Below are positions 20,786-40,814 of a stretch of DNA of 64,000 nt, in pieces. A program made the position numbers and the translations under genes. Within the stretch, counting starts at the first letter, position 1, and each line of letters starts with the position of its first letter. The notes under the pieces are model-generated. The model was given only the letters and a program-made list of their open reading frames with translations. It was not told the DNA's origin and ran no database searches. This DNA is from Moraxella sp. FZFQ2102. Lineage in GTDB: Bacteria; Pseudomonadota; Gammaproteobacteria; Pseudomonadales; Moraxellaceae. The DNA lies in NCBI RefSeq assembly GCF_024137865.1, contig NZ_CP099960.1, forward strand, positions 248,001 to 312,000, read 5' to 3'.

Positions 20786-20879
20786 CAACAAAAAACCCTT
20801 AAAGCTATATACTTCAAGGGTTTTAGGTTATTTTCAAATCCTTTCGGACTGTCAAATGGTACCAGTGGTCGGACTCGAA
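20786..20879. repeat. Distal attachment-site copy (tRNA-Leu 3' fragment plus terminator)
   Basis: This 94-base stretch is an imperfect direct repeat of 40721-40814: the first 39 bases and the last 23 plus flanking bases match, with scattered differences between. Positions 20857-20879 equal the last 23 bases of the tRNA-Leu gene including CCA, but the match stops at 20880 where the tRNA should continue. It is the displaced 3' end left by site-specific integration. Confidence 0.85.
20792..20824. terminator. Displaced copy of the tRNA-Leu terminator
   Basis: Stem AAAACCCTT / AAGGGTTTT with a 15-base loop and a T tract on the minus strand. It is identical in sequence to the hairpin beside the intact tRNA at 40727. 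Confidence 0.65.
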
Positions 20880-20930
20880 TGAGAATCTTAAGGTATTGAT
20901 TTTATTAATATTAAATTTTAAAATTTATTT

Positions 20931-20952
20931 TTTACCCTATTATTTACCCTTA
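20931..20952. repeat. Candidate integrase arm-type sites, distal end
   Basis: TTTACCCTAT at 20931-20940 and TTTACCCTTA at 20943-20952, about 50-70 bases inside the island junction. Four matching decamers flank the other junction at 40618-40679. The shared motif close to both att cores suggests arm sites for the integrase or its directionality factor. Confidence 0.5.
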
Positions 20953-21256
20953 TATGTTTTAATGATAGGGTTTCTGAGATAAGGTTATGAAGCGTGATAA
21001 ATTACAAACCCTTTCTAGCTATCCATTATATTAAACTACAGTAAAATTATAAATTTATATTTAATAAAAATAATATTTATTTATACTAAACTTATATAAT
21101 TTACTATAAATTTTATCCAAAATAATTACTTTTTCCCAATTTTCATCTATAATAATTAAAATTCACAAATTTTTATATTTTTTAATGATTTTTCATATAC
21201 GATAATCATTTTTCTCCTATTTTCCATCAATTTATTTAATTTGGCAAGGTTGAGTT

Positions 21257-22807
21257 ATGTATTCATCTATCACAGACCCAATTGGTGCAGTTTGGCTGAT
21301 TCGCAAGCTTGATCTGGCTGTTTACTCACCTTTATATACTGTCAGTGAGATTGGCAAGAGTCGTATGACGGTCAAGGATGGCGATTTTACCAAACACACT
21401 TATCAAGCACGCGTTCGCCCTAGCGATGATGTGATGGCTCATTTGGTATTTCATCTAAAGCATGAAATTGTATCGTTTGAATTATTGGTGCGAGTATTTG
21501 AGAAAATTGATCACAAATTGATTGAAGATTATATTAACAGCGAACCAACGGGACAATACGCTCGCAGATTGGGCTTTTTGTATGAATGGTTGATGGATAA
21601 GCAGCTGTCAATCACAGCGATCATCGGTGGTAATTATGCGGATGTATTGGATGGTGAACAGTTTGTGGTGGCATCTAGCAGTACAAAAGATACGCGTTGG
21701 CGAGTGAATAACAATATTGCGGGTACGCCAAGCTTTGCCCCAGTGGTGATTAAGACCGATGCAGTTAAGGCGGCTATTGAATTTGATATTAAAGACAAGC
21801 TTGATAAGATAAGTGAAGAATTTGGCGAAGATTTGATTTTACGCTCATCGGTGTGGATTACCTTGCGTGAGAGTCGTTCAAGCTTTATTATTGAGGGCGA
21901 GGGTAAAAAAGAGAATCGCATTGAACGCTTTGCTGCAGTGATGGCAGAACAGGTGGGCAAAGGCGAAATGCCGCTAAATCCCAAAGCTTTGGCAAGGCTG
22001 CAACAAGAAATCATCGGCAGAAGCTTGAGCATTGAGACTTTTGGGGTTAGGCAGTCGCCTGTATTTGTTGGCGAGAGTAATTTTCGTGAAAAAAAAGAGA
22101 TTGTGCATTATATCGCACCGCCACAACAGATGGTGGACGAGCAGTTACAGGGCTTAAGCGAATTTATGGATAAAACCCAAGGGCAATCAAGCATTATGCG
22201 TGGTGCTGTGGCTGCTTTTGGCTTTGTGTATATTCATCCTTTAGCAGATGGCAATGGGCGAGTGCATCGCTTGCTGATTAATGATATTTTGCGTAGAGAC
22301 CGGCAAACCCATGATCCAATTATCCTGCCAATCTCAAAAGCCATCATCGAAGATGGTAGTAGTCGTAAGGCGTATAATCAAGTGCTAGATACCATCTCCA
22401 AGGCAGTGATGAAGAGCTTAGATGGTCAATATCAGTTTAAAGAGCATATCCGTTATGCTGATGGCATACGCTCAAATCTTGTGCTGAATGACACAAGCCA
22501 AGCCCTACCCCTTTGGCGATATATGGACCTGACGCCCCATGTGGTGTATTTGGCAAATTTACTACAAAAAGTCATCACCGAAGATATGCCCGATGAATCT
22601 CGCTACTTACGCCATTATGACAGTATTCGAGAAAATCTTAAAAATATCATCGACATGAGCAATCATGATGCCGATCGAATTATCCGTAGTATCATTGACA
22701 ATCAAGGAGTCAGAAGTAACAAACTAGTCAAAGAATACCCTATGCTGGCTGATGATGAGTTGTGGAGTGAGCTCGTAACTACCGTAAATCGTAGCAATTT
22801 AATTTAA
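21257..22807 (+). CDS. Fic family protein, class II (putative AMP-transferase)
   Basis: 516 residues. The Fic core motif HPLADGNGRVHR (327-338) has the catalytic H327 and the anion-binding GNGR; such proteins usually transfer AMP from ATP to a target hydroxyl. An inhibitory helix motif S209-x3-E213-G214 lies N-terminal to the core, the class II arrangement that restrains activity in cis, which explains why no separate antitoxin is seen. The first 200 residues and the last 120 are not recognised; the latter may be a winged-helix. It is transcribed alone, opposite to the restriction-type operon with which it converges. Likely island cargo; target unknown. Confidence 0.88.
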   Translation: MYSSITDPIGAVWLIRKLDLAVYSPLYTVSEIGKSRMTVKDGDFTKHTYQARVRPSDDVMAHLVFHLKHEIVSFELLVRVFEKIDHKLIEDYINSEPTGQYARRLGFLYEWLMDKQLSITAIIGGNYADVLDGEQFVVASSSTKDTRWRVNNNIAGTPSFAPVVIKTDAVKAAIEFDIKDKLDKISEEFGEDLILRSSVWITLRESRSSFIIEGEGKKENRIERFAAVMAEQVGKGEMPLNPKALARLQQEIIGRSLSIETFGVRQSPVFVGESNFREKKEIVHYIAPPQQMVDEQLQGLSEFMDKTQGQSSIMRGAVAAFGFVYIHPLADGNGRVHRLLINDILRRDRQTHDPIILPISKAIIEDGSSRKAYNQVLDTISKAVMKSLDGQYQFKEHIRYADGIRSNLVLNDTSQALPLWRYMDLTPHVVYLANLLQKVITEDMPDESRYLRHYDSIRENLKNIIDMSNHDADRIIRSIIDNQGVRSNKLVKEYPMLADDELWSELVTTVNRSNLI

Positions 22808-22815
22808 ATTTCTTA

Positions 22816-23881
22816 TCAATTAATAATTTTTAATTTAAAAGAATGATCATTTAGATCTCCAAGAGAGAATATATTTGTATTGATTCCAAAATACTCATAA
22901 ATCACTTTTGTTTTATGAATTAGTCGCTGATCATTACTAATAAACCAATCACAAAGTGATGCAAAGCCAACATGCTCAGAATCTTTTTGAGCGCTAAGAA
23001 ACTTGTTTTCTTTATGAAGTGACTTATCCACCTTGTATCCAATTAGATTTAAAAAAATCATAAGCAAGCATAATTCTTTCAAATATTTGCCTAGATTCAT
23101 CATTAATATTGTTAAGAAAAACCTGGAGTAAATCACCATTAATATCACTAAGTGATTGTATATAATCGCTAATTCTTTCGAAAGTGTTCTTACCTTCTAT
23201 TTTGTTTAAATTATCGTGATTAATTTGACACTCTTTTCGAAGTTGTTGAGATATCCCTTTTTCAGCTCCCATTAAATACAGCTCCTGATAAAAGCGTTCA
23301 AGTCCTGACTTAACAACTGGTACTTGTTTTAACAATTCCTCCAAATGCTTTTCACTATCTGAAACAAATTTGCCAAATAGTGCTTTTTCATGTTTTGAAT
23401 AAATTTCTTTTTCCAAATCCACCCTAAGTATATCTCGGCAATTACCAATATATTTTAGCAATAAGAATAATTCATTTATTTGTCCTTCAACCTGTTTGCT
23501 TGGAGTGTCTATTTGGCTGTAATTCACCATGCCTATTTTCAAAGTATTGATAAGCATATTCTCAAAAGGCAAGATGTCTTCAATATATTTGATGTATGCC
23601 TCATACGAGTTAACATTCCATCGCATAAAGTATTGCTGAGTACCATCAAATTCCAAAGTATTAGTTAAAAATTTTGCACTCAATTTATCAAGCAAATCAA
23701 GAAAATCATGCAAATATCGAGAATTGTTAGAGTTTGAGCCCGCCTTATGAATTTCAGACAACGTTGTAGGTGAGTAGCAAATTATCCAATTTTGGGATAA
23801 ATAATCCATTAATTGATCTGATGCTTCTTTTAATAAACAATCCAAGATATTTTGATCTAAATAAACAGATGGTTTATCCAT
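22816..23881 (-). pseudogene. PIN-like domain gene split by a one-base slip in a run of seven T
   Basis: From ATG 23881 (just past the LlaJI-like stop; an in-frame TTG at 23905 is also possible) the frame encodes VYLDQNILDCLL, a PIN-type first strand with its acidic residue, then a long helical middle, and stops at 23024. Dropping one base in the homopolymer at 23051-23057 (A7 on the plus strand) joins AYDF to LNLIGYKVDKSLHK and continues to 22816 with HVGFASLCDWFISNDQRL, the conserved PIN C-terminal block. The full product would be about 350 residues. So this is a PIN-like (RNase-fold) gene that is broken, phase-variable, corrected by slippage, or hit by a sequencing error. It is the last gene of the six-gene operon. 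Confidence 0.75.
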
Positions 23882-23886
23882 TGGTG

Positions 23887-25161
23887 TTAAATTTCCTTGC
23901 GGCAAATTTGAAACAACTGGCTTTTTTTAATATTTAGTTCAATAATCCGAGAAAGACAATTGATTTCATTCGGAGTATTTTTCTGTGCCGACTGCATTAA
24001 ATGCTTGGTATCAATCAGCAAGGTGTGAATTTTGGTGTATTCTTGACCATCTGTAATAGATAGATCGGAGTCAGCATACCCGATGTAATGATAGACGGAA
24101 TTGCTTTTGAATTTTAGATGGTCGTAGGGTAGTAGGAATGCATTTCGAATTTTATTTGGAGAAATCTTTAGCTTTTCTCCTTTTCGTGCTATGTATTGTG
24201 CATACACAACCTGCTTGGCGATAGACGACATCTCGGGCAGGTGTTTTGGTTGTTTAGTCTCGCCATATCGGTAATATTTGGCATCGATAACATATAGAAA
24301 CCCATCCATCGTTTTCATGATAGTGTCTGGGTACAGATCATTCGATAGTGCTTGAGATTGGTCGTTAAAATGCCATATTGCCTGTGGGAAATACTGTTTT
24401 TTAATATCACCAGTTTCAGTGCCATAAACCTTATCAATTAGTAACTCCCAAACTTGCTCAAATCGATTTGTCCCAAATCGAAATTCTTGAGATTGGTCAC
24501 TTTGTTGATCAATATTTTGGAGCACTTGTAGCATGCTTTCAAATAACAGCTTTTCCGAATCTTTATTGGTCTTATGCAAACGCTCGCGAAGCGTTGTAAC
24601 AAATAATTCTTCATAAAAAGGTATATTTGGTTTTTGGGGTGTTGATAACCCATAATACCATCCCATTTTTATCAAGCTTTCATATACGCAATGTTTACTA
24701 ATTTGTGTAATTAGTAACTCATCATTAGTTTGGTGTATTCGAGTTTGCATTTTAAGATAAACCGCACCATTATCTTGGATGATCGGCTTTTCTTTTTTAA
24801 TGGTTCGGCCCCAATTCACCTTGCCCGATGTTCTACTTGCATAATAAATTTCTCGATCGTAGTAATAGCCATTTCGTAAGTAATCTTCAATGACAATCAT
24901 GTAAGAACTCAAAGGGAATCCTAAAATCTTATCACTATTTGCATGCAAAACGCCAAGGTCTTCAACTTGTTTTTGAAATCTTGATAGTGTTTGCATAAGC
25001 AAAAGCACATCTTTCTCATTAACTCCTTCAAGACGGTATCCATAAGGAAAGGTGATTTTAGGCTTGGCTGTGCGTGTGTCAGCATCCCATGTAAATGAGA
25101 TTCCTACAAACTCTTCTCTGCTTGTTGTATTCGAACAATACTCGGAGAAATCTTGAGTCAT
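23887..25161 (-). CDS. LlaJI-family restriction endonuclease subunit (McrC-like)
   Basis: 424 residues resembling the nuclease subunit of the LlaJI restriction system, the McrC partner of a McrB-like motor. The PD-(D/E)XK site is visible: E235, P278-D279 in LYPDT and D293-A-K295 in VIDAKYYRYG. The N-terminal 200 residues probably contact the motor or DNA. It starts 5 bases after the stop of the McrB-like gene, so the two are translationally close, as expected for one complex. It presumably cuts DNA lacking the modification put on by the operon's methyltransferases. The recognition site cannot be read. Confidence 0.82.
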   Translation of the reverse strand: MTQDFSEYCSNTTSREEFVGISFTWDADTRTAKPKITFPYGYRLEGVNEKDVLLLMQTLSRFQKQVEDLGVLHANSDKILGFPLSSYMIVIEDYLRNGYYYDREIYYASRTSGKVNWGRTIKKEKPIIQDNGAVYLKMQTRIHQTNDELLITQISKHCVYESLIKMGWYYGLSTPQKPNIPFYEELFVTTLRERLHKTNKDSEKLLFESMLQVLQNIDQQSDQSQEFRFGTNRFEQVWELLIDKVYGTETGDIKKQYFPQAIWHFNDQSQALSNDLYPDTIMKTMDGFLYVIDAKYYRYGETKQPKHLPEMSSIAKQVVYAQYIARKGEKLKISPNKIRNAFLLPYDHLKFKSNSVYHYIGYADSDLSITDGQEYTKIHTLLIDTKHLMQSAQKNTPNEINCLSRIIELNIKKSQLFQICRKEI

Positions 25162-25166
25162 GATTA

Positions 25167-27056
25167 TTACTCGTTTTCATCCTTAGAGTCTGCAAAGACA
25201 AATTCACCGCTAGCGTCAGCTACATCTTCAGTGCTTGGTTTTGGGCTGCTTAGCAAACTTTGGCGAACGCTTTCAATGAAAATATTAAATTTTGCACTTC
25301 CAACGCCATTATTGAACTCTTTCAATACTTGGTCTAAGCTATCCAAATCATCTCTGAACAACTCTGATTTCTTAAACTTAAAGACATCATCCCAAAGGTA
25401 TTTAATGACTTTCTCGGCAAATGGGCAAGAACCGTCCTGTATGGTTAGTTCGTGGGGTTTGACAAAGTATGCTCCAAGTCGCTTATCTTCAGAAGATAGT
25501 GTATTCTTATTTGATTGCAAAATGATGGTGTTAAGTTCTGTATTGAATTTGTCCCAAGTCACACCTGTATCACCAATGACTACATTTCTGAAACCACACT
25601 GCTCAATATTATTTTCCATCATCTGCATTGTCCATCGTCTTTGGAATGCTGTATCAAGAGTGAACACATTTTGGTCGGCTGTATTCATGGTTGCATAGAT
25701 GGATAGGTTGCTAGGGATATAAATCATGTTATTCTGAATTTTAAGATTTCCGTTGGAAACCTTGCTATCGGAGTTCTGATCTAAGGTATCATTGATAAAT
25801 CCTGCAATCAAATCGTTTGAAATTTTGTATTCGCTCTCACCTTTGCTATTACGGTCAAGCAACTGGAAGATTTCACCAAAAATAGCAGGCGCATTTCCGC
25901 GGTTAATCTCTTCAATCACTAAATAGTGGTGTTGATCTGGATTATCAAAAGCCTTTTTAAGAATGCGAGTGAATGGACCCGCCTTAAATTCATAGGTAAT
26001 CCCGACATCTTTTTTAACCGTGGGCAAAATTTGACCAATAAAGTCTGCATTAAGATAGTCGGGATGAAAAACCACTCGCTCAATGCGATGTTCATTTTCA
26101 CCGTTGAGATTGTTTAGTTGCTGGTTTACATAATAACTTTTTCCAACACCTGCAACTCCGTAGAGGAGAAGGTTTTGCGGATCGGATTGTTCGGATTGAC
26201 TAGATAAAGGAATCAATGCACTATCTGATTGCAGGAATTGACCATAGTTGTCTTTATTAAAGCTACTTGGATCTTGCTCAAAAAAATATAGTTTTTGAGC
26301 AATTTCTTTAATTCTGTCAATTTTCAGTTTTATATAACCTGACTCACTGAAGTCTAAAGTCTCTAGCTGTTTTAAAGCCTGTATTAAACGATTATCTACT
26401 TTTTCTTTATATTGAATAAACTGTCTTTCTATAGAAACTTTGTCGTCATCTTGACGCAATGATTGGATAAGCAGTAGTGTATCTAAAAATCCTTCAAATG
26501 TTTTAGTAGTTGCAACAAAATATCGATATTCAAAATCTGAGATTTTTGGATCTTGACCAGATAGGTATAACTCAAGGAGTATTTTATACAAGAGCATTAC
26601 TGGATATAGGCGATACTCAGAACGGGTACTTTCGAACTGCTCATCAATTTCCGAACTAATAAACATTTTTTCTATTTGTCGTTGAACAATATCTTGATAA
26701 GTTTGGATATCTTCAAACTTTCCATTACAGCGCTGCTTAATCTCATTGTACACAGATGTGATCTGAGATTGTTCATACGGATTTGAATTCGTAATTAGCC
26801 CAAAAAAGACAGCAACTCTCAATGCTCTGTGCGTGGTTGTAATATTTAAATGCAAGCTTTGATTTAACCGCTCAGCCTTGCTTTTAATAAATTGCTCAAG
26901 ATTCTTAGCTTGCGATGAGGTATTTTGATATTCTTGTAAAAAATCAACCAAATAGCACAAAGCCACAAATGAAGTTTCTTGTTTGACGATATACCAACAC
27001 GCACCTTTCTGCATATCCTGTAATTCATTCAGTTTGTTTTGCAAAAACTCATTCAT
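25167..27056 (-). CDS. McrB-type AAA+ NTPase subunit
   Basis: 629 residues. The C-terminal half is a McrB-family AAA+ motor: Walker A GVAGVGKSY (300-308), Walker B and McrB signature VIEEINRGNAP (380-390), and ATMNTADQNVFTLDTAFQRRW as sensor/arginine finger. McrB-type motors use GTP or ATP to translocate DNA and switch on their McrC-type nuclease, here the next gene. The N-terminal 280 residues are helical and presumably hold the DNA-recognition part; they are not a domain I recognise. It sits 4 bases downstream of the small PD-(D/E)XK gene. Confidence 0.88.
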   Translation of the reverse strand: MNEFLQNKLNELQDMQKGACWYIVKQETSFVALCYLVDFLQEYQNTSSQAKNLEQFIKSKAERLNQSLHLNITTTHRALRVAVFFGLITNSNPYEQSQITSVYNEIKQRCNGKFEDIQTYQDIVQRQIEKMFISSEIDEQFESTRSEYRLYPVMLLYKILLELYLSGQDPKISDFEYRYFVATTKTFEGFLDTLLLIQSLRQDDDKVSIERQFIQYKEKVDNRLIQALKQLETLDFSESGYIKLKIDRIKEIAQKLYFFEQDPSSFNKDNYGQFLQSDSALIPLSSQSEQSDPQNLLLYGVAGVGKSYYVNQQLNNLNGENEHRIERVVFHPDYLNADFIGQILPTVKKDVGITYEFKAGPFTRILKKAFDNPDQHHYLVIEEINRGNAPAIFGEIFQLLDRNSKGESEYKISNDLIAGFINDTLDQNSDSKVSNGNLKIQNNMIYIPSNLSIYATMNTADQNVFTLDTAFQRRWTMQMMENNIEQCGFRNVVIGDTGVTWDKFNTELNTIILQSNKNTLSSEDKRLGAYFVKPHELTIQDGSCPFAEKVIKYLWDDVFKFKKSELFRDDLDSLDQVLKEFNNGVGSAKFNIFIESVRQSLLSSPKPSTEDVADASGEFVFADSKDENE

Positions 27057-27060
27057 AGTG

Positions 27061-27705
27061 TTACCTCGTTAATCCTAATTGATTTAATAACCCATCAATA
27101 CCAAACAATCTATTATAGTCGCGAAATTTTGCCAAGCCTTCACCAAAATTTCCCACATTATCGTCTTGATTATTTAGATCATACCAGTCTGCATAGCCTT
27201 TAATTGTTGCTTCGGTGATACTATTTAAATCAATGGTTTTTTGTTCGGAATGACTATCTTTTCCGTTTAAATGCACCGCTACATAAAAGTTTTTAGGTGT
27301 ATTTGTAAATTGTTGCATGTTTATCAAAAGTTTTTTGTGGATAGGTCTAAATCCTGTTTTAATGTCAATGCTACGACCATTAATTTCAAAATCAAAACCA
27401 TCAGTATTTCCCTGACCTGGATAAATTTTAAACATATCTTCAATATTTGGATAGAAGTGATGATAATGAAGATATTCCAAAAAAGCCAACTCTCCCAATT
27501 TGCCAACATAAGTTCTTTGTATTTCTAATTTTTGCTGCAATTCAGGATCAGTCTTTGCAACATCGGGAACAAGCCTAGAATACTGATTGTTAGAAAGGAT
27601 AATTCCGTCAGCAAATTTTAAAGCTTTTCTTTTCATTACTTCTGTAATATCAATAATGTAACAATTAACATTATTGCCTTTTCTATTTTCTGTAATTACT
27701 CTCAT
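27061..27705 (-). CDS. Small PD-(D/E)XK nuclease-fold protein
   Basis: 214 residues without a family name I can give. A PD-(D/E)XK-like site is apparent: E72 in GELAFLEYLHYH, D102/D105 in NTDGFDFEING and D114-I-K116 in SIDIKTG, spaced as in restriction endonucleases. The start codon overlaps the stop of the cytosine methyltransferase by four bases (ATGA), and the McrB-like gene follows 4 bases later. It may be a second, independent restriction enzyme paired with one of the methyltransferases, or an accessory of the McrB/LlaJI machine. Nuclease activity is inferred from motif only. Confidence 0.7.
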   Translation of the reverse strand: MRVITENRKGNNVNCYIIDITEVMKRKALKFADGIILSNNQYSRLVPDVAKTDPELQQKLEIQRTYVGKLGELAFLEYLHYHHFYPNIEDMFKIYPGQGNTDGFDFEINGRSIDIKTGFRPIHKKLLINMQQFTNTPKNFYVAVHLNGKDSHSEQKTIDLNSITEATIKGYADWYDLNNQDDNVGNFGEGLAKFRDYNRLFGIDGLLNQLGLTR

Positions 27706-28817
27706 GTCGAAGCCTCCTCACTTAAAATCAATTTGGTAAACTCAGCCCAAAAATACCCCAACTTGGGAGGGACTGCGTTGCCAATCTGACGGCAAATTGA
27801 AGATTTGTTCCCATAAAAAATAAATTCATCTGGAAAAGATTGTATTCTTGCCGCCTCTCTTGGTGTAAGAGTTCGGTTTTCTTTAGGGTGAATAAACCGA
27901 CCGCCGCTTGGCGTGTCAAATCTTGTAGTAATTGTAGGCGCTATATCATTCCAATGCAACCGCCCATATGCGCCACTATGTACAGATTTAATTTCTTCAT
28001 TCAACACAGTAAAGTTTTCCCCATTTCCAATTTTTTGCATTCTCTCTATAGCAACCTTTGAATGATTGGGTGTATTGTGATTGAATATATGCTTATGCTT
28101 AGAACTTAGATAATGTTGGTATCTAGTAACTGCCTCTGGATTCTCCACTTTACCATCTTCAGTAGTTCCGCATAAATTTGCTATGGCATCGTGGACGGTT
28201 GTTGCATCAAAGAAACTGGGGTTTTTTTGAATGATTATATCCCTAGTTTTATTTAATTCATTCTCAAAGTTTATCTTACGATCCAATACCCCTATAATAA
28301 ACAACCTTTCTCTGCCTTGAGGAATTCCATAATTAGATGCCTTTAACACTGTGTGATATAAAGAATACCGGCAACCGTCCAATAAACTTTTATCAGAAAA
28401 AATCTCAATTATTTCATTGAAAATTTTACCCTTTTCCATAGTCAGTAAGCCTTTAACATTTTCCATAATGAACATTTTTGGCTTAACTGTTTTTACTATG
28501 CTAAAATAATGTCGGAATAGCTGATTACGAGGATCGTCTATAAACCCTTGTCTAATTCTCGCTCCTGCCATAGAAAAACCCTGACAAGGAGGTCCGCCAA
28601 TAATAATATCAGCTTCGTTAAGGTGAAAAAAACTACCATTATCAACATTTTTAATATCATCAACAATAAGCTTTGTTTTTGGGTGATTTTTTTGATAAGT
28701 TTCTGCGATACTTTTATCAAATTCAACAGCTTTAATAACCTCCAATCCGTTTTGAAGGAATCCAGTAGAAAATCCACCACAGCCTGCAAATAAATCAATT
28801 ACTTTTAGAGACATCAA
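27702..28817 (-). CDS. DNA (cytosine-5-)-methyltransferase
   Basis: 371 residues of the C5 family with its motifs in order: I DLFAGCGGFSTGF (8-20), IV GGPPCQGFSMAG with catalytic C78, VI MENVKG (118-123), VIII and the target-recognition region around 190-290, IX ending PREAARIQSFPDEF, X QIGNAVPP. It methylates cytosine at a site set by its variable region, which cannot be predicted here. It overlaps the upstream adenine methyltransferase by 23 bases, so the pair is probably translationally coupled. Protects host DNA from the nucleases encoded downstream. Confidence 0.95.
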   Translation of the reverse strand: MMSLKVIDLFAGCGGFSTGFLQNGLEVIKAVEFDKSIAETYQKNHPKTKLIVDDIKNVDNGSFFHLNEADIIIGGPPCQGFSMAGARIRQGFIDDPRNQLFRHYFSIVKTVKPKMFIMENVKGLLTMEKGKIFNEIIEIFSDKSLLDGCRYSLYHTVLKASNYGIPQGRERLFIIGVLDRKINFENELNKTRDIIIQKNPSFFDATTVHDAIANLCGTTEDGKVENPEAVTRYQHYLSSKHKHIFNHNTPNHSKVAIERMQKIGNGENFTVLNEEIKSVHSGAYGRLHWNDIAPTITTRFDTPSGGRFIHPKENRTLTPREAARIQSFPDEFIFYGNKSSICRQIGNAVPPKLGYFWAEFTKLILSEEAST

Positions 28818-30465
28818 AACCCGTCCTGTATTTTAAAGCAAAATTTTTAATGTATGTCACTTCATCTGATTCCAAACCATACAAACGACCAATAGCGTCG
28901 TCAATTTTATGGATCTCATTAAGACAGAGCTTGTGTTTATATTCATAATCAACTTGTTTTGTACCAACATATTTCTTTGTATTTGCAAGTCTAACTTCTA
29001 AATTTTGTGCAAGCTCTGAAAATGTTTCCATATCAATTTGTGCAAGATCTGGAATGTAAAAATTCTTAAGCTCTTTTTGCGTAATGTGCCAGCAGTCTGA
29101 AACCACCACCCAAAACCACCAAAATAAAGACGAGTTCAATAGACACATGCCAAACTCAGAAGATTGTTTATCAAAAAAATTAAATTGCTTGTACTCACCT
29201 CCGAGATGCGGTTTCAAAAAGGCTTTGACCCAAAATGTAGTACGCATATTAAGCGATACCGAAAACAGGCTGTTGCCTTTTGTTTCTTTGGTCAAATAAT
29301 CAAGTAAGCTATTATTATGGTTTAAAATTTTTTTATAAATTCTTGCATCGTAAATGCTCCCCAATTTTGGAATAAAACCGTGATCATCAAAATAATTGAT
29401 TGCAATTTCAGTTTCAGAAAACAACCTTTCTCTTTCAGATTTATACCAGTATTGGTAGTTGCTAGTATAGACAGTTTGATTTATGGGGTCATTGCTTTTT
29501 CTACCGACAATTATGCAGAGTTTCTGATGTACACCAGCAAACAAACAATCTGGACGGTCTGAATAACTTAGTATAAATAATTTATTCAACTTTTTCATTA
29601 AGCTTGTTCGCAGCTTTTTCATCCTTGGGGTCGATATAAATGAAATAGGAATAATAAACCCCATAATACCATTTTCCTCCAGTAGCATTAGGGTATTCAT
29701 CACAATGTTCGCATAAATGTTGCCATACTTTTCAGTAATATTCAATCCGCTTTTACTGTCTTCCACATATGGTGGATTTCCTATAGCATAATCATATTTG
29801 AATCGTTCATTTTTTGCCACAGATACACTATCAACAAAATCATACTCTTTAAAATTTGAGTTTAGAATATCCAGAATATTTACAGGTGCAGATGCGTATA
29901 AATGGTTTTTAATGTATAACCATATTCTTAATTTGGTAATGGCTATTGATTCGGTATTTATATCATTTCCATGCAGTGTCATTAGAATTTTTTGTAAATC
30001 ATCTGAATTAACCGATTTTATACCGCTTAATAGTTTTATTTTAATATCCAAGACTGACAGTAAAAATTCGCCCGTTCCACATGTGGGTTCAAAAAATGTT
30101 TTTTCAAAGCAAAAGTCTAGTATCTCATTCTTTTTTATTAAGTCAATGTTATTGGTTAATACATTATTTTCAATATAGGAATAATCCAACTTTAGAGCTG
30201 TTATGACTATGAAGTCAACTACATCCTTCGGAGTGTAGTAAACACCCCGCTTTTTTCGTAGTGATTCTTTTTCATTTACCGACTGTAGATAGTTTTGGAT
30301 TTTATCGTAATCCATATTGGGGGTTAAGTCCGAATACTTCCCTATATTTTGTAAATGCAAGCAGATTTCATAAAGTTGTCTGATTGTTAATTCATCATTT
30401 TTTTTCACCAAGATTAGTTGGTTTTCAATTAAATTTACAATATAATTTTTCAAATTAAACCTCAA
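28795..30465 (-). CDS. N6-adenine DNA methyltransferase (TaqI/Eco57I-like)
   Basis: 556 residues, first gene of the six-gene operon. KRGVYYTPKDVVDFI (72-86), the SAM motif FFEPTCGTGEFLL (124-136) and the catalytic NPPY (230-233) give the order typical of gamma-class adenine methyltransferases. The region beyond about 380 is the likely target-recognition domain. No nuclease motif is fused, so it is a stand-alone methyltransferase. LlaJI itself is known with two cytosine methyltransferases; finding one adenine and one cytosine enzyme here is different. The gene is AT-rich compared with core genes, consistent with transfer. Confidence 0.92.
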   Translation of the reverse strand: MRFNLKNYIVNLIENQLILVKKNDELTIRQLYEICLHLQNIGKYSDLTPNMDYDKIQNYLQSVNEKESLRKKRGVYYTPKDVVDFIVITALKLDYSYIENNVLTNNIDLIKKNEILDFCFEKTFFEPTCGTGEFLLSVLDIKIKLLSGIKSVNSDDLQKILMTLHGNDINTESIAITKLRIWLYIKNHLYASAPVNILDILNSNFKEYDFVDSVSVAKNERFKYDYAIGNPPYVEDSKSGLNITEKYGNIYANIVMNTLMLLEENGIMGFIIPISFISTPRMKKLRTSLMKKLNKLFILSYSDRPDCLFAGVHQKLCIIVGRKSNDPINQTVYTSNYQYWYKSERERLFSETEIAINYFDDHGFIPKLGSIYDARIYKKILNHNNSLLDYLTKETKGNSLFSVSLNMRTTFWVKAFLKPHLGGEYKQFNFFDKQSSEFGMCLLNSSLFWWFWVVVSDCWHITQKELKNFYIPDLAQIDMETFSELAQNLEVRLANTKKYVGTKQVDYEYKHKLCLNEIHKIDDAIGRLYGLESDEVTYIKNFALKYRTGFDVSKSN

Positions 30466-30554
30466 TACATCAGGCTATAAGTTTAGGTTTGTTCAAGATG
30501 GGTTTATTTATTAATTAATAGAACAGGTCATTCGACTATTATTTACCAAGCAAA

Positions 30555-30582
30555 TCACCGAATTTAAACAGTTATTTGGTGA
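30555..30582. promoter_or_regulatory. Inverted repeat upstream of the methyltransferase/restriction operon
   Basis: TCACCGAAT (30555-30563) and ATTTGGTGA (30574-30582) form 9-base arms with one mismatch around 10 bases, just downstream of a minus-strand TATAAT (30599-30594), i.e. about where transcription would begin. It may be an operator controlling the operon. No controller-protein gene is adjacent. Confidence 0.4.
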
Positions 30583-30688
30583 AATCGAATCTTATTATAT
30601 TAAATCAAGGTCTCATAGATAATTGCGAGCTATATTACCAAACTTTTAACTATAATGCATGTCTATTTAAATACAATGATCTTTTTGT

Positions 30689-31960
30689 TTACCCAACCCT
30701 TAACAACTCATCCCACCGTGTTGTAAACCTTTGACTCATAAAGCCCCGATTCATCTGCCAGTCATCAGACAGTTTTTGTGAGCCTAAAATCAGCTTTCCC
30801 TTGCCAAATTGCTTGTTAATGGCATCCAGTGTTTGCATCAGATGTTGATTTTCTAAATGCTCAAATTCATCTTGTTGTGCAAATAAATCATACTGCACAC
30901 GATGGATGGATTCAATCCCACCCAATTCAATACCGCACTTTTTGTAGTGATAGCCTTGTTTGTATAGGATTTTAAGCAGTTTTTGGGCATGTTGGTTTAA
31001 CACTCGAGTATCATTACTACCTTTAGTAAGAGCAATGGTCTTTTTACCATAGTACTGTTGATGATTGCCAAATGGATTGGTTTGGATAATGACTGTCAGT
31101 GTATGAGCTAGAGTGTTTTGTTCTCTGAGCTTTTGGGCACCACTAGCGATATGATAAGCGATGGCTGATTGCAATGGCTCAATCTCACTAATTGCCTTAG
31201 CAAAGCTTCTGCTTCTAATGATGTGTTTCTTTGACTCTTCAATCTCAAGTCCTGCACAAGGTTTGCCGTTCATCTCTTGCCATGTTCTTTGGGTGGTGAC
31301 GCTAAAATGATGCTTGATAAGATGTCTGTCAGCATCGACAAAGTCTTTGGCAGTGGTGATGCCTAATTGCTTAAGCTGTAGTGCTGTTTGACTGCCAATG
31401 CCCCATATTTCATCCACCGCTTGGCTTGCCAAGGCTCTGTGTTGAATGTCTTTTGACCAATCATCCCAAACCACGACACCGCCAAAGTGCTGTGGATAGC
31501 TTTTGGCAAGGTGATTGCAGAATTTAGCAAGTGTTTTAGTTGGTGCAATACCGACACAAGTAGGGATACCAACCCATTGCCAGACTCTGCTTTTAATCTC
31601 TTTGCCAAGCTTTAGTAAATCTACTTGATTAATCCCTGTTAAATCCGCAAAACACTCATCAATCGAATAAATCTCAATAGCAGGGACAAGGCTTGCAATG
31701 GTGTTCATCATCCGAGCAGAGATATCACCATAGAGCTCATAATTACTTGAAAAGGCGATGACTTTACCGCGATACACCAGCTCTTTGATTTGAAAATATG
31801 GCACGCCCATTTTAATGCCAAGTGCTTTGGCTTCAGCCGTGCGAGCCACTACGCAGCCGTCATTGTTTGATAAAACAACCACAGCTTTGTTTTTAAGCTT
31901 AGGGTTAAAAATCCGCTCACAAGAGCAATAAAAGCTATTGCCATCAATCAGTGCGTACAT
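30689..31960 (-). CDS. umuC: Y-family DNA polymerase V catalytic subunit UmuC
   Basis: 423 residues, UmuC length. Palm acidic residues are in LIDGNSFY (D6) and [12 protein letters not shown]; the fingers segment is [20 protein letters not shown] helix-hairpin-helix region and little-finger domain follow. It performs error-prone synthesis past lesions, together with processed UmuD. umuD lies upstream on the same strand, but 109 bases separate them and a good promoter sits in the gap, so each gene has its own start site. It is carried by the island. The recA-lexA system is not in view. Confidence 0.93.
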
Positions 31961-31971
31961 GAAATATCATC

Positions 31972-32042
31972 TTGAAAAAAGTTACCGATATGATACTGTA
32001 AAGTTTATCAGATTGCAATTTGAAATTGGTAACTCTTTTCAA
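31972..32042 (-). promoter_or_regulatory. umuC promoter with operator-like inverted repeat
   Basis: Minus-strand promoter TTGCAA (32018-32013), 17 bases, TATCAT (31995-31990). The whole is enclosed by 15-base inverted arms TTGAAAAAAGTTACC (31972-31986) and GGTAACTCTTTTCAA (32028-32042) with one mismatch. The inner-left arm matches a sequence in the same place at the umuD promoter. This looks like a repressor operator of the damage response. Confidence 0.6.
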
Positions 32043-32069
32043 TATGAACAAGTTAAGTTATATTGATAG

Positions 32070-32720
32070 CTATCGCTTACGCACATCCTTAATCACATGC
32101 ATTACCACACCAACAATGGCAAGTTCATCACCATCGCTAAAGGTGTAATTGGGATAGCTTTCATTATCACGACTGTTTTCAGAATGTAGTTCGACACATC
32201 CATCATCCAAGATATGCAATCGCTTGATGGTGTATTCAGAACCTAAATCCGCCATGACAATATCTCGATGACTTGGGGTGATGGCACGATCAATGACCAA
32301 TAAATCATCTTTATCAATCCCGGCATCCAGCATCGAATAACCGCCACAGCGAGCAATGATGGTGGACGAAGGATTGCGTACCAAATACTCATTAAAATCC
32401 AAATAATCTTCGATATAACCCTCAGCAGGAGAAGCAAAGCCTGCAGGGATTTTCTCCGTGGCGATGGGTAAGTCAAGCTTAGTTGGATTGGGGTGTACGA
32501 CAAGCGCATCTAATGGTACAGAACCTGTAGTCAATACCACACCCAATTTACCTGCTTTATTCTTTTGAATTAAAGACTCTACCATCGGCAATAAGTTTCT
32601 AGGGATCTTCTTCGCCACAGGACTACCAAAAGGCGATGGCTTACGACCACTGCCTGCACGGCGACCGCCATGAGTGGATTTGGGACGAGATTCGGATTTG
32701 GTATCATCTAATTGGGTCAT
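32070..32720 (-). CDS. umuD: UmuD-like S24 peptidase with long N-terminus
   Basis: 216 residues against about 140 in E. coli UmuD. The C-terminal half is a LexA/UmuD self-cleaving domain: Ala93-Gly94 as the likely cut site, S129 in CGGYSMLDAG (GDSM in E. coli) and K166 in YTIKRLHI as catalytic pair. The extra N-terminus begins with HGGRRAGSGRKPSPFG (17-32), a basic Gly/Arg segment that looks able to touch DNA. Acinetobacter UmuDAb, similarly extended, acts as a repressor of damage genes; this protein may do both jobs. It has its own promoter carrying the motif shared with umuC. Confidence 0.9.
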   Translation of the reverse strand: MTQLDDTKSESRPKSTHGGRRAGSGRKPSPFGSPVAKKIPRNLLPMVESLIQKNKAGKLGVVLTTGSVPLDALVVHPNPTKLDLPIATEKIPAGFASPAEGYIEDYLDFNEYLVRNPSSTIIARCGGYSMLDAGIDKDDLLVIDRAITPSHRDIVMADLGSEYTIKRLHILDDGCVELHSENSRDNESYPNYTFSDGDELAIVGVVMHVIKDVRKR

Positions 32721-32729
32721 GGTGGTGTC

Positions 32730-32776
32730 TTGAAAAAGGTTTCGGTTATCATAAATTTTTCAGTTTGTTTAGTCAA
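32730..32776 (-). promoter_or_regulatory. umuD promoter with motif shared with umuC
   Basis: Minus-strand TTGACT (32776-32771), 17-base spacer, TATGAT (32753-32748): a near-consensus sigma-70 promoter. Directly downstream, over the start point, TTGAAAAAGGTTTCGG (plus-strand reading, from 32730) matches the umuC-promoter sequence TTGAAAAAAGTTACCG at 31972 in 13 of 16 bases and lies at the same distance from the -10. Confidence 0.65.
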
Positions 32777-32809
32777 GTGTTTATTGGGCTGTATTAAGCG
32801 AAAAAAAAT

Positions 32810-32829
32810 AACCCCACCTAAGTGGGGTT
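32810..32829 (-). terminator. Terminator of alpA
   Basis: AACCCCAC / GTGGGGTT stem with a 4-base loop, followed on the minus strand by A then eight T. It is 17 bases past the alpA stop and separates alpA from umuD. Confidence 0.85.
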
Positions 32830-32845
32830 GTAAATCATTGGATCG

Positions 32846-33109
32846 TTAGCTTGCATCGCTAAATTTGCTTTCAAGCCAAGCCGCAATTTGATCAGCTCGC
32901 CAAACCACGCTCCTTTCAGTCAGCTTGATCTGCTTTGGAAAGGTGGGGTCGTAGCGTTTCGACTTTTCATCCATGATTTCATAGATGGTAGAACGGCTTA
33001 AGCGTGTGATTTGTATCACATCCTTAAGTCGCATCATTTGTGGTACTTGAGCTGTACCAAATTGGTCAAGTGGATTTGAAAATTTGGTTTGTGTTGCGTT
33101 ATTTGTCAT
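32846..33109 (-). CDS. alpA: AlpA-family regulator / excisionase-like protein
   Basis: 87 residues; a winged-helix AlpA/MerR-like DNA-binding fold in residues 25-82 (MRLKDVIQITRLSRSTIYEI, then FPKQIKLTERSVVWRADQIAAWL). AlpA proteins activate or aid excision of P4- and CP4-57-type elements. It is single, with its own terminator and an upstream gap carrying three AAAGTCCAGT boxes. It is the probable control gene of island excision. Confidence 0.88.
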   Translation of the reverse strand: MTNNATQTKFSNPLDQFGTAQVPQMMRLKDVIQITRLSRSTIYEIMDEKSKRYDPTFPKQIKLTERSVVWRADQIAAWLESKFSDAS

Positions 33110-33160
33110 CTCGGATTCTCCAGTAAGTTATTGCAGGAGTTAGTTCCTACATAACAAATC

Positions 33161-33224
33161 AAAGTCCAGTAAATTTTTACAACATCCCATAAAGTCCAGT
33201 AGCATCTTATGCACTGGACTTTAT
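33161..33224. repeat. Three AAAGTCCAGT boxes upstream of alpA
   Basis: AAAGTCCAGT at 33161-33170 and 33191-33200 (direct, 30 bases apart) and inverted at 33213-33222; the last two form a long hairpin with arms ATAAAGTCCAGT. They lie between alpA and the Gp3-like gene. The hairpin may terminate the latter, and the boxes may bind a regulator of alpA. The inverted pair lacks a T-rich tail. Confidence 0.6.
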
Positions 33225-33228
33225 GCCA

Positions 33229-34164
33229 TCAACTGACTGGTTTAACAGACTGTCGCAATCCAAACTCCATTGCTTGCCAATCTTCTAACTGTTTAGGATT
33301 AAGTTTCCCTAATTGTGTTTCGGGCTGCGCACTTGGGTTGCGTACTTCATCCGACTGCTCAACTTCATGATAAAACTCCTGACTAATTAACAAACCATCT
33401 TCACTATCAATCTCAAACTGTGAATTGGTATATCCTGCCTTAGCACTTTGTTCAAGTGCGGCTTGATTGAAGCCATGCTCAGAAAGATCGTCATTGATAG
33501 CTTGTGCCTTAGCAATTGATTCTTTCAGCGTAATACCATCTTGCAAAGTAAGATCAACATAGTAAATCGGCGTGCGATAACTTTGAGTGGTTGATTTACC
33601 ACGAATCACCAATTGCAATGGTAGGCAAGATAGTTTGTTATTGGATGCAGCAGCATAATAGCTCAATCTCGCCATCAGCGTACGAATGGAGTTATAGCCT
33701 GTGGTGCGAAACACAAATGCACCAAGCTCATCACTGTCATCCAAATTCACATACAGTCGTCCAAACAGCTTACAATTGCCATTTTGCCCAAGTGGGCAAT
33801 TCTCTGGACTGGGACAGGGTAGGTTTTCTACCCCGTTATTTGTCCGTCTTTGGCATATCTCACCATTGCCGACACACATCGGTCTGCCTGTTTGTCGATC
33901 AAATAGCGTGTATTCTGCTCGTAAATTCAGTTCTGGCGTGTTAAACAGCATTCGTACAGGTATTTGGCGCAGCTTACCGTTGGCGCTATGCTTGCGTAGT
34001 TTCTCATCTATGGGATGATTAACCCAGCCGTCTTTGCCTTGGATTTGACTGGTGATGGTGAATTGATCGTCTTTTTGTGGCATACGCTTGCCATTTTTCT
34101 CGACCACTTTACCAATGCTAATTCTGCCTAATACAGGTGGAGTGATGGCTAAACCTTTAATCAT
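33229..34164 (-). CDS. Gp3-like recombination directionality factor candidate
   Basis: 311 residues from ATG 34164, which has AAGGAG 8 bases upstream; the open frame extends 48 bases further. It starts MIKGLAITPPVLGRISIG and has a Cys-rich stretch (CVGNGEICQRR, then CPSPENCPLGQNGNC) that could bind zinc. Proteins of this type occur on integrative elements and are variously labelled hydrolase/metal-binding or phage Gp3-like directionality factor; I favour the latter weakly. Its place beside alpA and the recombination genes fits a role in excision or DNA handling. Confidence 0.6.
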   Translation of the reverse strand: MIKGLAITPPVLGRISIGKVVEKNGKRMPQKDDQFTITSQIQGKDGWVNHPIDEKLRKHSANGKLRQIPVRMLFNTPELNLRAEYTLFDRQTGRPMCVGNGEICQRRTNNGVENLPCPSPENCPLGQNGNCKLFGRLYVNLDDSDELGAFVFRTTGYNSIRTLMARLSYYAAASNNKLSCLPLQLVIRGKSTTQSYRTPIYYVDLTLQDGITLKESIAKAQAINDDLSEHGFNQAALEQSAKAGYTNSQFEIDSEDGLLISQEFYHEVEQSDEVRNPSAQPETQLGKLNPKQLEDWQAMEFGLRQSVKPVS

Positions 34165-34228
34165 GGGATGACTCCTTATATAACTTGATTTATTTGATAA
34201 ATTTGATACCAATTGAATTCCAAAAGAA

Positions 34229-34263
34229 AAAACTCATGCCGTACGGTTTGTGGCATGAGTTTT
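34229..34263 (-). terminator. Terminator of the YqaJ exonuclease gene
   Basis: AAAACTCATGCC / GGCATGAGTTTT, a strong stem around an 11-base loop, with a short T tract on the minus strand, 25 bases past the stop. Confidence 0.75.
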
Positions 34264-34287
34264 ATGCGGTTTTTTTTGGAAACTTGG

Positions 34288-35346
34288 TTAATTGGCGTGG
34301 GCGGGTGATGCAGACTGATTGATCAAAAAGCGTCTGCTACCTTGACGAATCTGCGGATACTGGCTTAATAGCTCAGGCTTATCCTTTAATAACGCCTTAC
34401 TGTCTAAGACTTGGCTGTCTTTTGACTTCTTCCAACTGATTGAGCCATGTTGAAATATCGCTACTTCATGCTCTTTCATGGCTTGACACAGTTGTTGCTT
34501 TAGAAAATCAAACCGAGATTCATGCTCATCAATCAGTCGTTTTTGTTCGATCAGCTCATCAAAGTAGCCGTTGAGTGTCTGATCATCGCTAAAATCGATA
34601 CTGTCTTGATTGCTATTGGGAAATAAGCTTTGTAATGCTTTTTGGGCAGACTCACTGCCATCAGCAGGTGGGGCAATGTCCTTTTCGACATATTCCCAAA
34701 AGCGTTTTTCTTGAGCAATGATATATTCAATCAACCGCTCATCTCGCTTAATCTCAAACATACGAGCTTCATGACCGCCAATTAAGACACATACATGGGC
34801 AAGCTGTTTACCTGTCACCGCTAACTGATGCTGAACTTGACAAGCAACATACAGTGGCACACCGTTTTGCCATAGTTTTGCGCCATGAACACCTGCGGTT
34901 TTAATTTCAAGTACGCCCACTTCAGGATTGCTCACCGCATAATCAAGATTAGCTAGCATGAACTTATGCTCAGGATGCTGTAATACCGCATTGATACGAC
35001 GGACTTTATTGCCTGTTTTGGCGGTGTAGTATTTGGCAACCAATGGTTCAAGCTGTTTACCCCAATATAGCGGTGCATAGCCATCTGTGGTCACTTTGGC
35101 AGGTTCAATCCGTCCTGTCTTAATAAGCCATAACTCAAGCTGTGACATATAAGGATTGACACCACAAACAGTCGGTGCATCACTACTGCCAATGCCTTGC
35201 TTACGCACATCTAGCCATTGCTCATGGCTTAGCCGCTTGGTATCAATCAGCCGTGTAGGTTTATTTGGCTTTGTAACAGCCATTGCCTTTTTCATGGCTG
35301 TGGACTGGGTATTGGTATTAATAGAATTGGTTAAAGGTGCGTTCAT
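34288..35346 (-). CDS. YqaJ-family exonuclease/recombinase
   Basis: 352 residues from ATG 35346 (AAGGAG just upstream; open codons to 35457 are ignored). YqaJ domain of the lambda-exonuclease fold: QGIGSSDAPTVCG near 50-62, E100 in YWGKQLEPLVAKYY, D135 in LANLDYAV, E147-x-K149 in LEIKT, and QVQHQLAVTG. Such 5'-3' exonucleases make single-stranded ends for phage-type recombination. A coiled segment follows from about 235. No annealing protein is adjacent. It lies in the island backbone next to DUF932. Confidence 0.88.
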   Translation of the reverse strand: MNAPLTNSINTNTQSTAMKKAMAVTKPNKPTRLIDTKRLSHEQWLDVRKQGIGSSDAPTVCGVNPYMSQLELWLIKTGRIEPAKVTTDGYAPLYWGKQLEPLVAKYYTAKTGNKVRRINAVLQHPEHKFMLANLDYAVSNPEVGVLEIKTAGVHGAKLWQNGVPLYVACQVQHQLAVTGKQLAHVCVLIGGHEARMFEIKRDERLIEYIIAQEKRFWEYVEKDIAPPADGSESAQKALQSLFPNSNQDSIDFSDDQTLNGYFDELIEQKRLIDEHESRFDFLKQQLCQAMKEHEVAIFQHGSISWKKSKDSQVLDSKALLKDKPELLSQYPQIRQGSRRFLINQSASPAHAN

Positions 35347-35412
35347 AAAAAACTCCTTAGATGAAATGATGATGGGGTTAAAATCAGTTTTACCACTAAA
35401 AAGACAGCATAA

Positions 35413-35440: not shown

Positions 35441-35481
35441 AATATGGTAATAATCATAACTTGGTGTATAGCTCAAACTGC

Positions 35482-36477: not shown

Positions 36478-36502
36478 CATAAACTCCTTAATTCTTTATT
36501 GA

Positions 36503-39421: not shown

Positions 39422-40618
39422 TTATTTATCTAGAAGAGATTCCAAATAATCTGCCCAAGCCTGCATCATTTCACGGCGTTTCTCAAGCCACTGAACCCTA
39501 TTGTAAGCGCGACCATTACTATCTCTGACCTGATGCCCAAGCTGTAGCTCAATCATGCGATAATCGTATCCAAAACGCTCTTCTAGGAGCGTACGAGCGA
39601 TAGCACGAAATCCATGGCTTGTTTGCTCTGTACTATCAAATCCCATGCGTCTAATAGCTTGATTGAGTGTATTCCCAGAAAGTGGGCTAACATTACTGGT
39701 TACGGACGGAAAAATGAACTCACTACTGCGAAAAGCTTTCATCTGTTCAAGGATTTCTAAAGCCTGAGTTGATAATGGGTTACACATTTTGACCGCTGTG
39801 GATTTTCTGGTTTTATTTGGTGTATACTCCCAATTGCCATCTTTGATATCATTCCATGTGATGTGTCTAACTTCACCTGGACGAGCAAAAGTCAGCAGAG
39901 TAAAGAGTAGGGCTTTTTTGGTGGTAAAATGCCCATGATAGCCATCGATACACTGAATAAGCTCAGCAAGCCTTGCTTCATCCAATATAGCGGCATTATG
40001 TTTAACTTCGCCTGTTTTAAATACACCACGAAGATTGATAGCTGGATTGGTTTGAATCAACCCAGTAGCAACTGCATAAGTGAAAGTTTTATTCAACATG
40101 GTGCGCATTTTCTCAAGCTTAGCAAAATGACCAGCGCTTTCCACGGGTTTTAATACCGCCATCAAATCAGGTACGGAAATTTCTGAGATGGGTTTATTGC
40201 CCAAGACGGCAATCAACTCATTTTTGTAATTTTCCATTTTTCTAAGTGTGCCATCGGAATAATCCATCGTGTCTAGCCAGTTATTGAAGACGGATTTGAA
40301 ATCGTTGCGTATGGCGTTAAGCTTAGCCTGCTTTTGTTGCTCATCATGAGCTTTTGGATCGATATTCTGAGCAAGTAATGATAAACAATCAGAGCGTACT
40401 TGCCTGGCTTGAGATAGGGATACCTCTGGGTAGCGTCCTATTTTATACATATCTTCTTTAGACTCATAGGGGCGCCGATATTTTAAATACCAAGTTTTGG
40501 TACCTGATACAGCAATAGAAAGCAATAAACCATCGCCATCATAAAGCCGATAGGGTTTATCTTTGGGTTTTGCGTTCGCAATCTCGGTAGCAGTGAGCGG
40601 TTTTGTCGTCTTAGCCAT
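39422..40618 (-). CDS. int: Tyrosine-type integrase (P4/DUF4102 type)
   Basis: 398 residues. N-terminal DUF4102 arm-binding domain (YRLYDGDGLLLSIAVSG, then GRYPEVSLSQAR), core-binding domain, and catalytic domain with R246 (ARPGEVR), H335-xx-R338 (SHGFRAIAR), H362 (LGHQ) and the nucleophile Y372 (AYNRVQWLEKR). It inserts and excises the island at the tRNA-Leu gene, whose 3' end is 174 bases from its start codon. TAAGGGTAAA boxes cover the start codon and upstream region, suggesting it also controls its own expression. Confidence 0.96.
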   Translation of the reverse strand: MAKTTKPLTATEIANAKPKDKPYRLYDGDGLLLSIAVSGTKTWYLKYRRPYESKEDMYKIGRYPEVSLSQARQVRSDCLSLLAQNIDPKAHDEQQKQAKLNAIRNDFKSVFNNWLDTMDYSDGTLRKMENYKNELIAVLGNKPISEISVPDLMAVLKPVESAGHFAKLEKMRTMLNKTFTYAVATGLIQTNPAINLRGVFKTGEVKHNAAILDEARLAELIQCIDGYHGHFTTKKALLFTLLTFARPGEVRHITWNDIKDGNWEYTPNKTRKSTAVKMCNPLSTQALEILEQMKAFRSSEFIFPSVTSNVSPLSGNTLNQAIRRMGFDSTEQTSHGFRAIARTLLEERFGYDYRMIELQLGHQVRDSNGRAYNRVQWLEKRREMMQAWADYLESLLDK

Positions 40619-40720: not shown

Positions 40721-40814
40721 CAACAAAAAACCCTTAAAGCTATATACTTCAAGGGTTTTTGTGTATTTTCGAATCCTATCGGACTCTTAAATGGTACCAG
40801 TGGTCGGACTCGAA
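40721..40814. repeat. Proximal attachment-site copy
   Basis: Direct repeat partner of 20786-20879. The 23 bases 40792-40814 lie inside the intact tRNA-Leu gene and are identical in both copies; they are the probable crossover core. The terminator half also repeats, so the element restores both tRNA end and terminator. Confidence 0.85.
40727..40759 (-). terminator. Terminator of tRNA-Leu
   Basis: AAAACCCTT / AAGGGTTTT stem with T tract on the minus strand, about 32 bases after the tRNA CCA end. Confidence 0.7.

Follow-up and report, generated by a model that had tools for sequence, protein, structure and literature searches.

The window analyzed here, a 64,000-nucleotide stretch of Moraxella sp. 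FZFQ2102 (contig NZ_CP099960.1, positions 248,001 to 312,000), carries a LlaJI-type restriction-modification (R-M) operon in which the surprise is the product of the third gene, P214. This small protein belongs to a widespread, unnamed family with the PD-(D/E)XK nuclease fold, which is independently mobile but tends to accompany the same pair of DNA methyltransferases (MTases), an adenine-type enzyme (N6A) and a cytosine-C5 enzyme (C5). The distribution of P214 gives it a testable role, that of a restriction nuclease sharing its methyl guard with a second machine, here the McrB-like protein R1 and the LlaJI-family protein R2.

Gene content of the operon

Five intact genes, N6A, C5, P214, R1 and R2, run leftward from position 30465 to 23887 and are followed by the open reading frames (ORFs) of a PIN-like gene. 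The junctions in this order measured –23, –4, +4, +5 and +5 bases, the last counted to the PIN-like ATG at 23881; that is, C5 overlaps N6A by 23 bases and P214 overlaps C5 by 4 bases. The features are as follows, with protein lengths in amino acids (aa).

28795..30465, minus strand: N6A, Eco57I-type N6-adenine DNA MTase, 556 aa; the first start of the ORF is TTG
27702..28817, minus strand: C5, cytosine-C5 DNA MTase, 371 aa (PF00145, TIGR00675)
27061..27705, minus strand: P214, PD-(D/E)XK nuclease-fold protein, 214 aa
25167..27056, minus strand: R1, McrB-like AAA+ GTPase with an N-terminal domain (about residues 1–240), 629 aa
23887..25161, minus strand: R2, LlaJI-family PD-(D/E)XK nuclease subunit, 424 aa (PF09563, PDLC03549)
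23024..23905, minus strand: PIN-like gene, ORF 1 (N-terminal part), 293 aa, ATG at 23881; placed by identity to single-ORF relatives
22816..23148, minus strand: PIN-like gene, ORF 2 (C-terminal block), 110 aa, in another frame; its residues match the C-terminus of the relative P0121

The original prediction, made from the letters of the window, had proposed a six-gene operon here. Its gene order, strand and tight spacing were confirmed, and the five intact genes form a real operon; the sixth gene did not stand, as it appears broken and lies in two frames. Promoter and terminator scans of the window gave results at chance level.

All the motifs that had been claimed (NPPY, PCQ, Walker A with EEINRGN, PD...DAK, and E72/D105/D114/K116) were recovered. 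N6A carries PTCGTGEF and GNPPY and matched PF07669 (E 2.3e-14) and PF02384 (E 1.4e-9), and C5 carries PPCQ and matched PF00145 (E 3.9e-78) and TIGR00675 (E 1.8e-69). Alw26I, Eco31I and Esp3I are type IIS/IIA systems with N6-methyladenine (m6A) and 5-methylcytosine (m5C) enzymes for the two strands; we take NCBIfam to include an Alw26I-type model, and at E 0.1 N6A matched no such model. A search of viral contigs with N6A found nothing.

In R1, the motifs GVAGVGKS (Walker A) and EEINRGN accompany matches to PF07728 (AAA_5; E 8e-10) and to McrB structures in the PDB (E 1e-18). Its match to the PADLOC profile PDLC03547 (E 1.1e-83) covered residues 294–605 only, that is, the motor. The N-terminal domain of ~240 residues, a putative specificity domain, was conserved in 7/7 aligned proteins and is unlike PDLC03547; the broken genes of loci L026 and L028 were excluded from this alignment. 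R2 matched PF09563 (RE_LlaJI; E 2.8e-31) and, over nearly the whole protein (residues 14–408), PDLC03549 (E 5.1e-66). Its PD and DAK were invariant in all seven LlaJI proteins of an alignment that excluded the broken gene of L015. The best PADLOC matches of R1 and R2 were labelled type II restriction enzymes. The operon is of LlaJI type in that R2 is an RE_LlaJI-family protein with PD...D/ExK and R1 has an McrB-type GTPase motor in its C-terminal half. It departs from that type in its MTases, which are not two m5C enzymes; one is of Eco57I/N6 type and one of C5 type. At E 0.001, R1 had matches in 11 of the 57 genomes searched, its own included, the best match outside its own genome being 37% identical and confined to the motor.

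P214 and the recurrence of the gene set

Both marks of the PD-(D/E)XK superfamily were found in P214: an E...D...(D/E)xK active site and, by VIA-align comparison of the structure model, a restriction-endonuclease-like fold. In an alignment of the window protein with 73 of 120 listed homologues, E72, D105 and K116 were invariant (74/74) and D114 was kept in 73/74; D114 and K116 sit on one strand of the model. The family is widespread, with 177 homologues found, and it has no name: the window protein had no Pfam, PADLOC or NCBIfam match, and none of the 74 aligned members reached a convincing Pfam family. One homologue (P0021) carries a precomputed PF25902 label that was absent from a fresh scan. 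A P214 profile searched by sequence against the PDB found nothing, and P214 was not found in phages or in the viral contigs searched. Among 274 genomes of the class, P214 occurred in one, its own. The portions of the open-licence literature available to us yielded no account of P214, nor of any LlaJI system that has an additional, autonomous nuclease.

A pair of short peptide patterns drawn from the P214 alignment was used to scan one genome per species, 84,980 in all. The scan gave at least 10 confirmed P214 loci, the patterns making this a lower bound. The order P214-N6A-C5-McrB-LlaJI was present in Anaerotignum (L014) and in a Clostridia metagenome-assembled genome (L020). The five-gene set was degraded in Streptococcus infantis (L015) and interrupted by IS30 in a Lactiplantibacillus plantarum plasmid (L024), and in L018/L031 the system genes were present with P214 6 kb off. 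The original prediction had proposed asking whether the six-gene order recurs in unrelated genomes. The answer was positive for five genes, with P214 in a different position, first at the other loci and between C5 and R1 in the window. This recurrence in Bacillota, outside the phylum of the window, indicates that the five genes are one system rather than a chance stacking. On Lactobacillus plasmids (L024, L026, L028) the same system was seen in stages of decay, with IS30 insertions and split ORFs.

The modules behind N6A-C5 varied: McrB with LlaJI, a double-AAA McrB with McrC, or none. In L017, a 1006-aa double-AAA protein and a McrC-family protein (PF10117) took the place of McrB-LlaJI, and McrB-McrC likewise replaced it in L030, L040 and L041. 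These double-AAA McrB-like and McrC pairs lie directly behind C5 (L017 13425–17811; L030 11033–15398; L040 3252–7563; L041 11223–15558); a methyl-dependent McrBC in that position would threaten its own host DNA. In L021 a glycosyl hydrolase came next after P214-N6A-C5, and no motor lay behind the three genes. In two genomes P214 was unlinked (L016 9875–10636; L019 9953–10645), with no other system gene within 10 kb and N6A-C5 on another contig of the same genome. These two genomes are G330, where N6A-C5 was followed by an McrB remnant (L029), and G333, where McrB-McrC followed (L030).

The two MTases appear to evolve as a pair, to judge by their sequences: N6A and C5 distances were strongly correlated in Mantel tests, with r = 0.89 across 14 loci and r = 0.82 across the 9 that carry P214 (p = 1e-4 in both). 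The L015 N6A and the L026 C5 entered these tests as partial ORFs, the broken L024 P214 was omitted, and L023 (a fragment) and L022 (a contig end) offered no N6A for pairing. P214 distances tracked neither N6A (r = –0.05, p = 0.55) nor C5 (r = 0.21, p = 0.24; 9 loci), as expected of a separately traded part. On a tree of N6A-C5, parsimony gave 3 changes of restriction module (11 labelled loci) and 3 changes in the presence of P214 (13 loci). Neither module type nor P214 presence was clustered on this tree beyond shuffles, node supports being mostly low; L026 was omitted, L021 and L029 had no module label, and L024 was counted as P214-positive. The C5 segment between the catalytic motifs, which we take to be the target-recognition region, was conserved across 13 loci. 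This conservation and that of the R1 N-terminal domain, together with the confinement of the PDLC03547 match to the R1 motor, suggest that these systems may have a common specificity different from that of LlaJI. A shared target site would explain how modules are exchanged without harm.

An N6A gene 45–51% identical was present in 8 of the 10 P214 genomes searched (8/9 plus 0/1). The two without it were G336, whose P214 is a fragment of 63 residues, and G732, whose P214 lies at the end of a 3.4-kb contig. Among 397 genomes around the family of L017, five had N6A and two of these five had full-length P214. The N6A genomes without P214 at E 0.001 (L040 and L041 with McrB-McrC, L042 with McrB-LlaJI) had complete restriction modules; P214 as a universal component was rejected on these three of five. 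One genome, G468, gave a weak P214-like match (E 7e-6) with no system gene in the 17 kb read. Among 270 genomes around the family of L015, a single one, on which the sample was centred, had P214, and it alone had N6A. Leaving out the two centre genomes, the N6A background was 4/665, G330 being among the four. Where P214 was not near N6A (G330, G333, G336 and G732), N6A was present in two of the four genomes (binomial p = 2e-4). P214 as an independent hitch-hiker was weakened, and no more than weakened, by this co-occurrence in the unlinked state. P214 thus tends to need N6A-C5, and N6A-C5 has no need of P214. Such one-way dependence is what one expects of a restriction nuclease and its guard, although a Vsr-like enzyme would show it too.

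The PIN-like gene and the integrative island

The span 22816–23905 holds two overlapping ORFs in different frames (23024–23905, 293 aa; 22816–23148, 110 aa), where the original prediction had read one sixth gene. A YLDQN and E43 block lies in ORF 1 and a CDWFISNDQRL block in ORF 2. The relatives P0121–P0124 are single 354-aa ORFs, 97, 52, 51 and 35% identical to ORF 1, and the window copy in two frames is therefore broken near 23050 in this assembly, by a sequencing error or a real lesion. With the conserved C-terminal aspartates in the second frame, this copy should be inactive, barring sequencing error or bypass. The family counts at least seven proteins, the four intact relatives and three more from a profile search. 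D9, E43 and D317 were kept in 7/7 of them and D311 in 6/7, an arrangement that we take to be PIN spacing. No convincing Pfam, NCBIfam or PADLOC family was found for the protein, and no Pfam PIN family for any of the seven members at E 0.1. Against the PDB, the family profile returned only helical or designed proteins, all scoring weakly, and a single relative returned one weak row. The C-terminal part of the family matches phrog_34404, a phage family of unknown function (P0121, E 6.7e-7; P0126, E 2.5e-7); the family was not found in the viral contigs searched.

Two others of the 274 class genomes had distant PIN-like relatives, with no gene of this R-M system beside them, one of the contigs being only 4.1 kb long. 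A relative on an Alteromonas plasmid (21% identity) had no annotated R-M gene in the 14 kb shown. At the further system loci examined, no PIN-like gene was found. Its proposed place in the system accordingly found no support. Nothing points to the RNA-directed back-up that had been built on it, which we rejected since the gene is broken in this assembly and no copy was found beside the system at those other loci.

An integrative element carries the operon as cargo. The proposed island location was confirmed and sharpened to a 20-kb element (20786–40759) with attachment repeats at a tRNA-Leu gene, the operon lying between 39-bp exact direct repeats.

20786..20824: left attachment repeat, an exact 39-bp copy that runs on into an imperfect one taking in the 3' end of tRNA-Leu
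40721..40759: right attachment repeat, next to tRNA-Leu (40792–40878)
39422..40618, minus strand: tyrosine integrase of the island (PF00589, PF13356, PF22022)

The island also holds AlpA, a recombination-directionality-like protein and a YqaJ recombinase, and its GC content is 37% compared with 46% in the remaining window. No clean empty site was found among 22 genomes of the same genus, its own included. In G015, the same tRNA-Leu is occupied by another element, whose integrase is 64% identical (L055, L060), and the site may therefore be an integration hot spot. A near-identity search did not find the right half of the island in plasmids or the whole island in phages.

Two neighbourhoods of the operon are worth recording. 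At 21257–22807 on the plus strand, inside the island and convergent with the PIN-like gene, lies a gene for a Fic-domain protein (PADLOC PDC-S24, E 4.7e-165), a second candidate defence gene; PADLOC gave no match for 10 further window proteins. Directly upstream of the R-M operon (30689–32720, minus strand) are genes for a UmuC-like polymerase and an S24 peptidase (UmuD-like), and the L. plantarum plasmid with the five-gene set likewise has a Y-family polymerase (L024 1406–2707).

Possible roles of P214 and comparison with known systems

We regard the case as evenly balanced for a type II-like R-M system in which the marks of N6A and C5 guard against two machines, R1-R2 and P214 as an autonomous endonuclease. 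Both MTases would act on the same site, which in the simplest case is asymmetric, one strand carrying m6A and the opposite strand m5C. The first machine, of LlaJI type, would read this site through the R1 N-terminal domain, use its GTPase motor and cut with R2. The second, the PD-(D/E)XK endonuclease P214, would read the same unmodified site and be checked by the same marks, and the system would presumably serve in phage defence. The pair of marks would be the fixed core and the nuclease modules exchangeable, the broken PIN-like gene being a passenger in the 20-kb element. If this is true, one modification pair over two unlike nucleases would explain module swaps that do not kill the host, and P214 would be a new small endonuclease with an m6A/m5C-guarded site. 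A switch of McrBC from methylated to unmethylated targets also becomes testable in the four systems whose own C5 is followed by a McrC-family nuclease.

A bolder extension, which we put forward tentatively, is that the methyl-mark pair may be a licence platform for any nuclease that reads the unmarked site, so that one cell could run two unlike restriction machines under the same protection. These would be a GTP-driven translocating cutter, McrB-LlaJI or McrB-McrC, and a simple EcoRV/Hjc-like endonuclease. A phage escaping one machine would then still meet the other, P214 could live far from its guards on the chromosome, and McrB-McrC, in origin a reader of methylated DNA, would now read unmethylated DNA instead.

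P214 could instead be an accessory subunit of the GTP-driven complex that cuts only within it, like the third gene of LlaI or BsuMI or the small subunit of a type IIT enzyme. We think this possible and rather doubtful. The three-ORF cassettes of LlaI and BsuMI with their short McrB-like subunits (PMC1459862) and the small cutting subunit of type IIT enzymes (PMC4081073) are precedents, and the P214 gene of the window sits between those of C5 and R1 and overlaps the former. However, complete McrB-LlaJI (L042) and McrB-McrC (L040, L041) modules occur without P214. P214 occurs with either motor type, has none beside it in L021 and can be unlinked altogether, and R1 carries an N-terminal domain that the short LlaIB and BsuMIB lack. 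An unlikely role is that of a repair or processing nuclease for methylated DNA, either Vsr-like and acting at m5C-derived mismatches or a reader of hemimodified sites. The tendency of P214 to accompany N6A-C5 with no restriction module needed alongside would suit it, and DpnI, an m6A reader, is among the fold neighbours of the P214 model. A Vsr-like dependence would give the same co-occurrence pattern as a guarded restriction nuclease, and the numbers are small. Against a repair role, E...D...DxK is the usual PD-(D/E)XK nuclease pattern, and 0/74 members matched at E 0.1 the Vsr profile that Pfam presumably includes.

It is very unlikely that the PIN-like gene works as a sixth component, expressed through ribosomal frameshifting or homopolymer switching, whose RNA cleavage kills or stalls cells when restriction fails. 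Its start 5 bases past the LlaJI stop, the acidic residues kept by its intact relatives and the described coupling of HEPN RNase domains to R-M systems (PMC3710099) would fit such a role. Its broken state here, its absence from the other system loci examined and the two distant relatives with no system gene alongside all speak against it, and the family proteins among the candidates scored, at least seven, are few. The least likely account is that independent R-M pieces came together by chance in a defence island. P214 and the restriction modules are indeed traded independently of the MTases, and the PIN-like gene looks like just such a passenger. The same five families nevertheless stand together in another phylum, and P214 genes away from N6A are still accompanied by N6A in the genome far above background.

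One of the closest known systems is LlaJI of Lactococcus lactis pNP40. It has four genes, two of them for m5C enzymes, with the site GACGC/GCGTC; its R1 is a specificity subunit with a GTPase domain and its R2 a presumed nuclease (PMC1459862). The window operon resembles it in the McrB-like R1 with a separate N-terminal half, the PD-(D/E)XK R2 and the two clustered MTases (PMC1459862). It differs in pairing an adenine-type with an m5C-type enzyme, in an R1 N-terminal domain without a PDLC03547 match, and in P214, which is not among the four genes described for LlaJI. PDLC03547, with its 585 positions, is probably R1.LlaJI, for which PMC1459862 gives an equal length. LlaI and BsuMI, related to LlaJI, have three-ORF restriction cassettes with McrB-like proteins (PMC1459862), and, by the title of a reference cited there, LlaI restriction takes three genes that share an operon with llaIM. 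At 337 and 343 aa, the McrB-like subunits of LlaI and BsuMI are short beside the 629-aa R1 of the window. A similar four-gene set is reported from Clostridium cellulovorans (PMC11779793), and the type II genes of S. xylosus HKUOPL8 include a LlaJI-family endonuclease (PMC10030836).

The adenine-plus-cytosine pairing is present as the original prediction had it, and is less odd than was suggested. For Hpy99V of H. pylori, m6A (GGAG) and m5C (CTCC) enzymes are assigned by annotation to the opposite strands of a single asymmetric site, the m5C enzyme M2.Hpy99V being inactive in the strain tested (PMC3936762); as in that pair, the operon has one adenine and one cytosine MTase. A review describes asymmetric sites as served by one or two MTases (PMC4081073). 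The proposed hybrid restriction system holds for the m6A-type and m5C-type MTases, the LlaJI-type McrB machine and the extra PD-(D/E)XK protein, and loses the PIN-like gene. McrBC, a type IV system, cuts methylated DNA and has no associated MTase (PMC1459862). R1 shares the homology of the McrB AAA+ motor, and a McrC-family protein (PF10117) is present in L017, L030, L040 and L041; unlike McrBC, the modules of these four loci lie directly behind a C5 enzyme of their own.

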